Source: Thermosipho affectus (GTDB lineage: Bacteria > Thermotogota > Thermotogae > Thermotogales > Fervidobacteriaceae). Taken from it: a stretch of 64,000 nt of DNA. Both the position numbers and the translations under genes were made by a program. A model generated the notes under the pieces. The model was not told the origin of the DNA. It ran no database searches and worked only from the letters and a program-made list of their open reading frames with translations. The stretch's first letter is position 1, and each line of letters opens with the position of its first letter. Positions 15,585 to 36,033 of this stretch are shown one piece after another. Where the stretch lies: contig NZ_LBFC01000005.1 in the NCBI RefSeq assembly GCF_001990485.1, positions 1 through 64,000 of the forward strand. Direction: 5' to 3'.

Positions 15585-15593
15585 TGATATAAT
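15585..15593 (+). promoter_or_regulatory. Extended -10 promoter of corA
   Basis: TG-A-TATAAT at 15585-15593. Transcription would begin near 15600, giving a leader that carries the 19-codon ORF at 15628 before corA. No Mg-sensing M-box-like structure is visible in 15442-15627, which is otherwise AT-rich and empty. Confidence 0.65.
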
Positions 15594-15627
15594 TTAGAAA
15601 GGCCAATATATAGGAGGTGAAAAGGTA

Positions 15628-15687
15628 ATGAGTAGTGATAGTTTCAGTTGCAGTTACTCAGACGAACCTTTGCCACGACCACCGTAA
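15628..15687 (+). CDS. Putative proline-rich leader peptide of corA
   Basis: A 19-codon ORF, MSSDSFSCSYSDEPLPRPP, with a strong ribosome binding site (TAGGAGGTGA, 15611-15620). It ends 25 bases before the corA ATG. The last six codons are CCT-TTG-CCA-CGA-CCA-CCG, so the peptide ends P-L-P-R-P-P directly before the stop, an arrangement that tends to slow elongation or termination. Proline-sensing leader ORFs control Mg transporters in enterobacteria (mgtL of mgtA; corL of corA), but no homology is implied. The ORF, its Shine-Dalgarno and position are seen; regulation is inferred. Confidence 0.6.
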   Translation: MSSDSFSCSYSDEPLPRPP

Positions 15688-15712
15688 AAAATATATAGAG
15701 GAGGTAATAAAA

Positions 15713-16639
15713 ATGGTAAAATTTTACACCACAAAAGAAAACAAAATTGTGGAAGTTGAAAAATTTGTTGAGAACTCTCTAATCAAAGTTATTGATCCTT
15801 CCGCTGATGAAATTCATATGCTTTCAAGTTTATTGCAATTTGACCCGGATTTTGTATACGACTCACTTGATGATGACGAAAGGGCACGTATTGAAGTAGA
15901 TGAAGATACCGTATTAATAATCCTAAAAATTCCTAAGAAGTTCGATAGTAGCTCAAAGATTCCTTATCGAACTGTATCAGTTGGTATAATTATTGGAAAA
16001 AATTATACCATTTTTTCCTCAAAAGAACCCGTAGAATTTATAGAACATATGATCAAAAATAGTAAATTTGATATCAACAAAAAGAGCCGCATGATCTTTC
16101 AAATTTTTCTCATAAATGCGAAGGTTTTTCTTGCATATTTAAAGGAAATAAATAAAACCATTAGCATTATTGAAGAAGAATTACATAGATCAATGAAAAA
16201 TAAAGAGCTTGAAGAAATGATGTACCTTGAAAAAAGTTTGGTATATTTTACTACTTCACTAAGATCAAATGAAATAATGATGGAAAAATTACTTAGGGGA
16301 AATATTATAAAAATTTATGAAGAGGATAAAGATGTTTTAGAAGATGCCATTATCGAAAACAGGCAAGCAATAGAGGTTTCAAATATATACAGTGACATTT
16401 TGGCAGGGATGATGGATTCATATGCCTCTGTTATTTCAAATAATTTAAATATTGTCATGAAAATATTAACAGTTGTTACTATATTAATGCAGATTCCGAC
16501 AATAATAACTAGTTTCTACGGCATGAACGTGAAATTACCAATCCAGCATAATTCCTTGGCTTATTTATATATAATCATATGGTCCATTGGAACTGTGGCA
16601 CTCACACTTGTTTGGTTTAAAAAGAAAAAATGGTTATAA
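15713..16639 (+). CDS. corA: Magnesium/cobalt channel CorA
   Basis: 308 residues from ATG 15713, after GAGGAGGTAATAAAA; the frame is open further upstream to 15635 but that part overlaps the leader ORF and has no ribosome binding site. The large N-terminal cytoplasmic domain is followed by a long stalk helix and two C-terminal membrane helices. The YGMN signature of the selectivity loop is present (TSFYGMNVKLP), and the protein ends in basic WFKKKKWL as in pentameric CorA channels. A proline-rich leader peptide precedes it and a strong bidirectional hairpin follows. Confidence 0.95.
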   Translation: MVKFYTTKENKIVEVEKFVENSLIKVIDPSADEIHMLSSLLQFDPDFVYDSLDDDERARIEVDEDTVLIILKIPKKFDSSSKIPYRTVSVGIIIGKNYTIFSSKEPVEFIEHMIKNSKFDINKKSRMIFQIFLINAKVFLAYLKEINKTISIIEEELHRSMKNKELEEMMYLEKSLVYFTTSLRSNEIMMEKLLRGNIIKIYEEDKDVLEDAIIENRQAIEVSNIYSDILAGMMDSYASVISNNLNIVMKILTVVTILMQIPTIITSFYGMNVKLPIQHNSLAYLYIIIWSIGTVALTLVWFKKKKWL

Positions 16640-25290: not shown

Positions 25291-26321
25291 TTCTAGGTGC
25301 TACAGGTTCAATTGGCATTCAAACATTAGACGTAATAAAAAAACTAAAAGGATATAAGGTAACTGGAGTTGTATTTGGGCAAAATAAAAAACTTGGGGAA
25401 AAAATTGTAAAAGAATACAATGTAAATTTTTATTACTCACAAGTATTATCAAATGTCTCTTCCATAGAGGAACTTTTGGAAAAAACAACCCCAGATATAG
25501 TTGTTGCGGCAATTCCTGGGTTTAATGGTGTTATATCCACATTCCAAGCAATTAAATTCACAAAAAGACTTGCCCTTGCCACAAAAGAGGCCTTAGTTTG
25601 TGCAGGACCATTGTTAAAAAAAGCTTGTAAAGATGTAGAATTAATACCAGTTGATAGCGAGCATTCTGCCATCTTTCAGATTTTTGATGAAAACGTAGAA
25701 AAAATATTAATAACCGCATCAGGTGGCGCAATAAGAGAATATGATAACATAGAAAACCTCACTCCAAAAGAAATATTAAAACACCCTGTATGGAATATGG
25801 GACAAAAAATAACAGTCGACTCATCAACTATGATAAATAAAGCCTTTGAAGTAATTGAAGCATATGAATTATTTGAATTAGACACAATAGATGTATTAAT
25901 ACACCCCACGGGCACAGTTCATGGTGCAGTTTTCTTGAAAGACGGTACAGTAAAAATACACTTTGGATTCCCTGATATGAAAATACCAATTTCATATGCA
26001 CTGACTTATCCAAAGAGAATGTATATAAACCTAAATTGGCCAGAGTTTAAAGGGGAAAATTTTATTTTTACAGAGGTAAGTGAAGAAAAATACCCCGCTT
26101 TTTTTTATGGTAAAAAAATTATTAAAGATCTTGCAAAAAGAGTAGCATTTAACGCAGCAGATGAAGTTGCAGTAAATATGTTTTTGGAAAGTAAAATAAA
26201 GTTTCACAATATCTCAAAGATAGTTATAGACACCTGTGAAAAAATAAATGGCAAAATAAGGGATTTAGAAGATGTTTTTGAAGTAGATAAACTTGCAAGG
26301 CAAATTGCAAATAATTTTTGA
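25269..26321 (+). CDS. dxr: 1-deoxy-D-xylulose 5-phosphate reductoisomerase
   Basis: 350 residues, somewhat shorter than the roughly 390 of other bacteria, as usual in Thermotogales. NADPH-binding GATGSIGIQTLDVI, ATKEALV, metal-binding DSEHSAIFQ, ASGGAIREY and HPVWNMGQKITVDSSTMINKAFEVIEA are all present. It makes 2-C-methyl-D-erythritol 4-phosphate, the committed step of non-mevalonate isoprenoid synthesis. The cobalamin riboswitch promoter begins just after its stop. Confidence 0.95.
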   Translation: MVEKTVVILGATGSIGIQTLDVIKKLKGYKVTGVVFGQNKKLGEKIVKEYNVNFYYSQVLSNVSSIEELLEKTTPDIVVAAIPGFNGVISTFQAIKFTKRLALATKEALVCAGPLLKKACKDVELIPVDSEHSAIFQIFDENVEKILITASGGAIREYDNIENLTPKEILKHPVWNMGQKITVDSSTMINKAFEVIEAYELFELDTIDVLIHPTGTVHGAVFLKDGTVKIHFGFPDMKIPISYALTYPKRMYINLNWPEFKGENFIFTEVSEEKYPAFFYGKKIIKDLAKRVAFNAADEVAVNMFLESKIKFHNISKIVIDTCEKINGKIRDLEDVFEVDKLARQIANNF

Positions 26322-26323
26322 TG

Positions 26324-26332
26324 TGTTATAAT
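26324..26332 (+). promoter_or_regulatory. Extended -10 promoter of the cobalamin-controlled operon
   Basis: TG-T-TATAAT (26324-26332) starts two bases after the dxr stop, about ten bases before the expected transcription start and 18 before the riboswitch. Confidence 0.7.
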
Positions 26333-26349
26333 TTACGTGAAATACATTT

Positions 26350-26495
26350 CTTCTAAAAAAAGGGAAGCCGGTGGAAATCCGGCACGGGGACGCCACCGTA
26401 ACCGGGGACGAAATCAGTACAAATGCCACTGGGGAAAACCTGGGAAGGCGCTGAAAGTAGGATGAACCGGGAGTCGGGATACCTTTTTTTAGAAG
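26350..26495 (+). promoter_or_regulatory. Cobalamin (B12) riboswitch aptamer
   Basis: All landmarks of the class are readable: GGGAAGCCGGTG near the start, the P5 stem ACGG/CCGT with its loop around 26388-26395, the B12 box core GCCACTG (26425-26431), GGGAAGGCG, and GAGTCGGGATACC at the end. The closing P1 helix is a perfect 14-bp pairing of 26350-26363 with 26482-26495. It precedes a BtuF-like binding protein and a BtuC-like permease, the expected regulon. Confidence 0.95.
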
Positions 26496-26502
26496 GAGAA
26501 AG

Positions 26503-26535
26503 CCACCTTTACGGTCCCTAAAGGTGGTCGATTTC
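26503..26535 (+). terminator. P13/terminator hairpin of the cobalamin riboswitch
   Basis: A perfect 9-bp stem (26503-26511 with 26519-26527) followed by a T-rich TCGATTTCTTTT. Its loop contains GTCCC (26514-26518), complementary to GGGAC at 26387-26391 in the P5 loop region, the expected L5-L13 kissing pair. Ligand binding would thus stabilise the hairpin and reduce read-through; the ribosome binding site at 26549 onward is outside it. Confidence 0.7.
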
Positions 26536-29967: not shown

Positions 29968-30326
29968 TGGTGGAGGCGGCGGGAATCGAACCCGCGTCCG
30001 AAAGCAGAACCCTCCGAGCTTCTCCGAGCGCAGTCCGTGTTTTTTATTCGGAGCCAAGATGCCCACGGACAGGCTTCTTGACTCCTATCCTCCCTCTAAT
30101 TTCGCGGCTTTGAGTGGAAGGAAGACTCAAAGCCACTAGACCGGTTATGTCACGCCCTATCCAGAACCCCGGTCAAATCCTGGTAGGACGGCAGCTTTTT
30201 AAATTAAGCTGCTAATGCTAATTCTTCATTGGCATTTATCTTTTCCCCGTGCTTTTTTACGAGAAGCACGGAAAACTCGGCTCGCTTCTCGGAGGATTCC
30301 ACCCCCGTCGAAACCAGTTCGCCCCC
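29968..30326 (-). ncRNA. ssrA: tmRNA (transfer-messenger RNA)
   Basis: 359 bases on the minus strand. The 5' end GGGGGCGAACTGGTTTCGACG pairs with the 3' end CGCCTCC-A-CCA, giving a 7-bp acceptor stem with one G-U pair, and the T arm GGTTCGATTCC is present with encoded CCA. The tag frame reads GCC AAT GAA GAA TTA GCA TTA GCA GCT TAA, giving ANEELALAA and stop, at about 30203-30232. This short tag resembles the known Thermotoga tag. The intervening stems correspond to the usual pseudoknots. tmRNA rescues stalled ribosomes with SmpB. Confidence 0.95.
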
Positions 30327-30384: not shown

Positions 30385-30472
30385 TGGTGCCGAGGGCGGG
30401 ACTTGAACCCGCACGGGCTATACGCCCACATGGCCCTCAACCATGCGTGTCTGCCTATTCCACCACCTCGGC
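30385..30472 (-). tRNA. tRNA-Leu (anticodon GAG)
   Basis: 88 bases on the minus strand with encoded CCA. Acceptor GCCGAGG/CCCTCGGC-type pairing, a long variable arm (GTGGGCGTATAGCCCGT), T arm GGTTCAAGTCC, and anticodon stem CATGG/CCATG enclosing TTGAGGG, anticodon GAG. Confidence 0.95.
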
Positions 30473-35869: not shown

Positions 35870-35923
35870 CCCTCCTTTACTAGGAGGGAGAGGTAAATGC
35901 ATACTATTGCATTGTCCTCTCCC
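35870..35923 (-). promoter_or_regulatory. Expression platform of the FMN riboswitch (SD sequestor/anti-sequestor)
   Basis: Minus strand: GGGAGAGG (35916-35923) can pair with CCTCTCCC (35886-35893), or be held in aptamer helix P1. CCCTCCT (35882-35888) can pair with the ribD Shine-Dalgarno AGGAGGG (35870-35876). The two pairings share CCC at 35886-35888, so FMN binding would free the CCCTCCT strand to mask the ribosome binding site. This predicts translational repression. Confidence 0.75.
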
Positions 35924-36025
35924 ATCCGGACTTTAACCGTCGGCTCCGGAATTTCACCGGATCAACCCTTAACGGGCTCGCGGGCTTTCACCGCCGGTCG
36001 GGACTCTCACCCTGCCCCGAGGACT
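35914..36025 (-). promoter_or_regulatory. FMN riboswitch (RFN element) aptamer
   Basis: Minus strand shows the conserved blocks in order: GGGGCAGGGTGA, GACCGGCGGT, AAGCCCGCGAGC, GATCCGGTGAAATTCCGG, GCCGACGGT and AAGTCCGGATGGGAG. P1 pairs GTCCTC (36019-36024) with GAGGAC (35914-35919). It precedes ribD, as expected. Confidence 0.96.
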
Positions 36026-36033
36026 CTAAATAT

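Follow-up and report, generated by a model that had tools for sequence, protein, structure and literature searches.

Candidate leader peptides ending in Pro-Pro-stop upstream of corA and mgtE Mg2+ channel genes in Thermotogota

A leader ORF at the corA locus

How is the corA gene of Thermosipho affectus controlled, and what part does the 19-codon ORF between its predicted promoter and its start codon play? Mg2+-sensing leader peptides that act through ribosome instability are established in Enterobacteria. The window analyzed here is the whole 64,000-nucleotide stretch of contig NZ_LBFC01000005.1, and its corA locus has the following features (f and g numbers are the family and genus labels of the search tool; f1 is the family of this genome):

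15585..15593, + strand: predicted extended -10 element TGnTATAAT, read by eye
15612..15619, + strand: leader Shine-Dalgarno sequence (SD) AGGAGGTG; GGAGGTG in the leaders of f1 homologues
15628..15687, + strand: leader ORF of 19 codons, ATG at 15628 and stop TAA at 15685-15687, encoding MSSDSFSCSYSDEPLPRPP-stop
15661..15687, + strand: conserved core DEPLPRPP-stop (acidic pair, prolines, Pro-Pro-stop), found in 16 of 103 genomes and always before corA
15688..15712, + strand: spacer of 25 nt from leader stop to corA, containing the corA SD GGAGG at 15700-15704
15713..16639, + strand: corA, Mg2+ channel of 308 aa, ATG at 15713 (Pfam PF01544, E 1.1e-53; matches to PDB CorA chains)

The first-pass annotation had described a lone 19-codon ORF with a good ribosome binding site that lies between the promoter and corA and ends in PLPRPP-stop. 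Its coordinates and SD were confirmed, and the short leader ORF before corA is real. Transcription is predicted to start near 15600 on the basis of the extended -10 element. A consensus promoter scan did not list this TGnTATAAT box, but a TATAAT box precedes the uORF at most loci of f1 and g32. The leader is the sole SD-led ORF between the box and corA. A single CorA was found in this genome and MgtE was not found there, which places the leader on the only channel of either family found.

Known riboswitches were considered as the control element. An Rfam search at corA found no riboswitch, and the M-box (RF00380) exceeded its gathering score in none of the 103 Thermotogota genomes and nowhere in the window, while the same search was positive in B. 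subtilis and L. lactis. On the strength of these two results, corA was judged to have neither an M-box nor any other known riboswitch. Elsewhere in the window, FMN and cobalamin riboswitches score above the Rfam gathering score at 35910-36028 (- strand) and 26313-26504 (+ strand), respectively. The window also carries a tmRNA gene (29968-30326, - strand) adjoining a tRNA (30388-30472), and tmRNA could be a rescuer of ribosomes stalled on the leader. In the titles and abstracts searched, which take in few subscription journals, no leader of corA or mgtE was described for either Thermotogota or Spirochaetes.

Conservation of the leader on two channel families

Conservation was assessed in a phylum set of 103 Thermotogota genomes, where the contigs of named relatives belong to Thermosipho MAGs. 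Genome counts take related genomes as separate, and independent support lies in the spread of the leader over many genera and over two families of genes. All nine f1 corA orthologues searched have the leader, with the peptides MSSDSFSCSYSDEPLPRPP, MESYGSYSDEPLPRPP, MSSDSFSRYSDEPLSRPP (two), MNSESYPSSYSDEPLPRPP, MSSESYTSSYSDEPLPRPP (two), MSGESYTSSYSEEPLPRPP, and MNSESFSSYSDDPLPRPP. The leader is also present in 7/7 genomes of genus g32, as MDYFSCSEDPLSRPP and variants. In these 16 of 16 orthologues, [DE][DE]PL[PS]RPP-stop lies 20-27 nt upstream of corA. As a 27-nt pattern, [DE][DE]PLxRPP-stop matched in 16 of the 103 phylum genomes (nine f1 and seven g32) and once in the genome of the window, and the reversed pattern gave no match in the 103 genomes. 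The genes upstream of the leader vary between loci (for example, between this genome, most other f1 genomes, and g32).

Substitutions at the leader end track the reading frame, with synonymous codon changes. In f1, the last 11 codons have 20 amino-acid changes among 68 codon-difference pairs, compared to a column-shuffle mean of 55 (0 of 2000 shuffles), and the same region in g32 has 5 of 33 (p 0.0015). For both remaining frames, p exceeded 0.6 in the same test. The ORF has the sequence features of a leader peptide: it is short and SD-led, lies between promoter and gene, and is conserved as a peptide.

At a cut-off of E below 1e-60, 41 genomes of the wider set have a corA orthologue, and an SD-led leader was found in 33 of them when looser versions are counted. 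These are the 16 from f1 and g32, g36 (MDSSSSSKDVVSLPP), two from f7 (MESASNTEIPLRPP and a relative ending MPTRPP, the start of which is ambiguous), and 14 of 15 from family f9 (MELYSSESEPPL, MELYSSEGDLPP, and similar, with MDIYSSESAMPN lacking PP). The conservation check proposed in the first-pass annotation was thus passed strongly, with 16/16 close orthologues, synonymous change, and 33/41 across the phylum. Together with the absence of the M-box from all 103 genomes, this supports its view that a proline-containing leader peptide would control corA in the stead of an M-box.

Eight of the 41 orthologues lack the leader (six f3 genomes, G024, and G037). In a maximum-likelihood tree of 75 CorA proteins, on which the leader labels of spirochaete rows were assigned by eye, the leaderless f3 clade is sister to f1 and lies inside the leader-bearing group, so loss of the leader in f3 is the simpler reading. 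At the leaderless locus of G024 (L081), the upstream CDS ends in NEYSPLGEVP-stop about 38 nt before corA, which is strikingly leader-like. The tree also places the CorA of a contig labelled as a Thermococci archaeon (L005) among Thermotogota CorA, and this contig is probably mis-binned. The leader was not seen at the deltaproteobacterial, Bacilli, Bacteroidales, and Chloroflexi corA loci scanned or at more distant CorA loci (L056, L106-L114), and a universal association with corA was rejected on this account.

MgtE was found in 54 of the 103 genomes. The 160 nt upstream of mgtE were examined at 57 of 61 matched places (L171-L225 among them). An SD-led uORF ending in Pro-Pro-stop is present at 39 of the 57, one more has a weaker SD, and 17 have no such leader. 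Dinucleotide shuffling gave a mean of 0.025 and a maximum of 1, and the reverse complements gave none. Examples are MEGTSSSLSLPP, MESTSSSFSLPP, MDSTGSFFEFSDLPP, MEYPSYSSNKPP, MDYPSCCNPLNKPP, and MGDDCPSSRPP, and the shortest type is the 8-residue MESTSLPP of genus g13. The leader stop lies 11-33 nt from mgtE, and residue 2 is D or E in 37 of 40 leaders. Changes in the f2 mgtE leaders track the reading frame (p 0.0025); the g34 and g13 groups, small for such a test, gave p 0.014-0.07.

A pattern that makes no reference to the gene (GGAGGTG, 36-60 nt, CCNCCNTAR, 4-28 nt, GGAGG) gave 24 matches, 21 of them before corA or mgtE, compared to four for the reversed control. In a looser version, 19 of 34 rows lie before mgtE; its reversed control also has many matches, so it is less specific. 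At the level of sequence comparison, corA and mgtE, which encode unrelated Mg2+ channel families, are shown to carry the same kind of leader in Thermotogota, linked to Mg2+ channels. The finding is broader than the first-pass annotation, as the Pro-Pro-stop leader also precedes mgtE and related acidic/proline leaders precede spirochaete corA.

In Spirochaetes, an SD-led uORF with two acidic residues followed by proline was found at 28 of 51 corA upstreams (shuffle mean 0.5, maximum 2; reverse complement 1), for example, MDEGGSIKPLPR, MDDGSYPLPENK, MSTLDDGGSITPLPRNP, and MPDPDSSSRHDIQPYPRTPP. The acidic/PLP motif of these leaders is at the N terminus. Loci L115-L168 have a conserved leader of the form MD[DE]G[GS]S..PLP or MxxxDDGGS.., and the leader spacing is either about 3-15 nt or about 40-115 nt. 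Some spirochaete mgtE loci have acidic/proline uORFs when read by eye, and an identical 35-residue uORF (MESEKLYYFTINILNKKEKTLPIPSGRCSMLLDKL) lies upstream of mgtE in four genomes (L286, L289, L295, and L297).

What is conserved was examined by a tally of residues and codons in 59 leaders (19 corA and 40 mgtE). Pro-Pro immediately precedes the in-frame stop in all 59. It is encoded by nine codon pairs, which argues for selection on the peptide, and the stops used are TAA, TAG, or TGA. The core ends in R-P-P-stop in 18 of 19 corA leaders and in L/K/Q/R-P-P-stop in the 40 mgtE leaders.

The conserved unit could instead be RNA, in which CCNCC of the proline codons pairs with the GGAGG of the channel gene as an anti-SD and the reading frame is incidental. 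These stretches pair in some folds, the CCTCC of g13 mgtE leaders is fully complementary to GGAGG, and a sequestering hairpin is predicted at f9 corA. However, just 7 of the 59 leaders have the complementary T at the decisive position, opposite the A of GGAGG, and anti-SD pairing was therefore rejected as the conserved feature. Changes also track the reading frame, Pro-Pro always abuts an in-frame stop, and f1 and g32 have no strong common fold. RNA as the conserved unit is very unlikely on this evidence. As far as codon usage can show, the conserved object is the peptide or its termination, under amino-acid selection; RNA pairing may be additional to it in g13 (CCTCC) and f9.

The f9 leader stops 71-90 nt before corA. 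In a consensus fold of nine aligned f9 loci, the stretch after the leader stop pairs with the corA SD and start in a predicted hairpin. Read in the +1 frame, through a slip at CTT TGA, CCT TGA, or AAT TGA, the f9 loci L091-L094, L096, L097, and L099-L103 would in most cases encode D-L-S-R-P-L-[RK]-P-P-S. This frame has 31 changes of 85 compared to a shuffle mean of 67 (column shuffles p 0.001-0.002, from seven distinct sequences), the remaining frames gave p above 0.8, and f9 group B was not significant in the same +1 test (p 0.1). The frameshift is no more than suggestive, because this stretch also supplies one arm of the hairpin predicted to cover the corA start. The conserved +1 frame may reflect a programmed frameshift or be a by-product of the hairpin, and a paused ribosome in f9 might turn corA on rather than off.

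A candidate Mg2+ switch at the channel start

We consider it probable (about 0.6) that the ORF is a cis-acting regulatory leader peptide, in which slow release at Pro-Pro-stop or abortion of translation at low Mg2+ sets access to the channel start. We infer that ribosomes pause, that Mg2+ is the signal, in which direction it acts, and that occlusion is the output step. A ribosome translating the 19-codon leader would meet acidic residues and then prolines (SDEPLPR), followed by Pro-Pro-stop, where peptide release would be slow. A pause there would leave the stop codon (15685-15687) in the A site, and the ribosome would cover about 12 nt downstream, a footprint described in part of PMC4833913, and reach about 15699. 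Such a ribosome would abut the corA SD (15700-15704), so that 30S loading would be blocked. At low Mg2+, ribosomes would drop off or clear the acidic/proline stretch, leaving the corA SD free and corA translated. With ample Mg2+, the leader would be completed, and the paused ribosome would keep the SD covered and corA held down.

Passages of PMC11282234 describe ribosome drop-off at EPDP of MgtL when Mg2+ is low, and passages of PMC8092293 describe control of mgtB translation by the acidic codons of mgtQ. In portions of these two sources and of PMC11552253, Mg2+-dependent drop-off is opposed by bL31 or EttA. The precedent for drop-off, together with the reach of a paused ribosome to the corA SD, favors a switch at the level of translation. 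Leaders at two unrelated Mg2+ channel families favor Mg2+ as the signal among Mg2+, proline, and translation status, and the arrangement suggests that the ribosome itself may be the magnesium gauge. Against the mechanism, the leader is absent at the 8/41 corA and 17/57 mgtE loci noted above, and many mgtE leaders (e.g., MESTSLPP) have one acidic residue, weaker than the EPDP of MgtL.

The Thermotogota leaders have proline as their constant residue, and excerpts of PMC3641672 report that mgtL and mgtP respond to proline limitation. A shortage of prolyl-tRNA could thus stall the ribosome at proline codons and alter channel expression. However, the targets are Mg2+ channels rather than proline genes, and several mgtE leaders have just two terminal prolines (MESTSLPP), which is few for an attenuator. 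An acidic residue 2 and a Pro-Pro adjoining the stop would also be unnecessary, and we regard proline sensing as rather improbable.

Short leader genes near structural genes have been proposed to act by translational coupling or re-initiation (PMC4833913, in part), and the leader could boost channel translation in this way with no sensing. The distances differ, with a peak at 10-11 bp in the data excerpted from that paper compared to about 20-33 nt here, and a reviewer's comment printed with it places Thermotogae at the minimum for the 10-11 bp distance. The channel genes also have strong SDs of their own, and coupling would not require a conserved Pro-Pro-stop or peptide sequence. This explanation is unlikely.

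Transcription attenuation through Rho is known for mgtA and enterobacterial corA, with corL and mgtL of E. coli acting via Rho in the part of PMC11552253 consulted, and for CruR, which combines a C-terminal RAPP motif with Rho (PMC9426467, in part). Here, an intrinsic terminator scan of the leader region, including the leader-to-gene spacer, found none. A rut site would not fit into the spacer of only 20-33 nt that separates the leader from the gene, which makes Rho attenuation less likely, and we consider it quite unlikely at these genes.

Returning to the Mg2+-responsive leader peptide, a wider reading is possible, at somewhat under even odds. Acidic residues followed by prolines, often with a Pro-Pro-stop, would then form a general Mg2+ code in nascent peptides, used on the unrelated CorA and MgtE channels in at least two phyla outside Enterobacteria, Thermotogota and Spirochaetes. 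The ribosome, rather than the M-box, would be the main sensor of cytoplasmic Mg2+ in these lineages; f9 would possibly add a +1 frameshift (CTT TGA) to a PL[RK]PP core within the hairpin at the corA start. If true, Mg2+ sensing by ribosomes is a widespread device that any transporter can acquire. At 8 residues, MESTSLPP is small enough for in vitro tests of the effect of Mg2+ on Pro-Pro termination.

Comparison with known systems

The M-box (ykoK) riboswitch regulates Mg2+ transport genes in other bacteria, and the 103 Thermotogota genomes lack it. In E. coli and Salmonella, corL is also a leader ORF before corA, and its translation opposes corA expression; it differs in having one conserved proline and in acting via Rho and RNA structure (portions of PMC11552253). 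The mgtQ uORF of Salmonella mgtB is likewise acidic (8 aa, SD AGGAGG) and controls translation of a Mg2+ transporter. It works through alternative stem-loops, and its proline is dispensable as an amino acid (both from passages of PMC8092293), whereas no such stem-loops are apparent in the f1 leaders and PP-stop is their constant part. For mutually exclusive stem-loops of the mgtQ type, f1 and g32 gave no strong common fold, and f9 has the predicted sequestering hairpin.

RAPP-type arrest peptides (ApdP, ApdA) and CruR share a C-terminal R-P-P in a uORF, and CruR is metal-responsive (copper). In contrast, the leaders described here are 8-19 aa long, have R followed directly by PP-stop with no Ala or Gly, and have no metal-binding CXXC. 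The RAPP-type core (R-A-P-P, R-G-P-P, or R-A-G-P) is accordingly absent from them.

MgtL, which precedes mgtA in Enterobacteria (NC_000913), is also a short leader before a Mg2+ importer gene, and both MgtL and the peptide of this locus (SDEPLPRPP) have acidic residues followed by PLPR. MgtL carries its acidic/proline motif at residues 2-9, acts from far upstream via Rho, and lacks a Pro-Pro-stop, whereas here the motif closes the peptide and lies about 25 nt from the gene. Gene, motif position, and spacing all differ from what descent from the MgtL family would predict, and from sequence the resemblance to E. coli MgtL is compositional only. The spirochaete corA leaders are closer to MgtL (as translated from NC_000913) in having the acidic/PLP motif at the N terminus. 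The composition associated with intrinsic ribosome destabilization, acidic residues and proline within the first 30 residues, is found in the leaders, as the peptides are under 20 aa.
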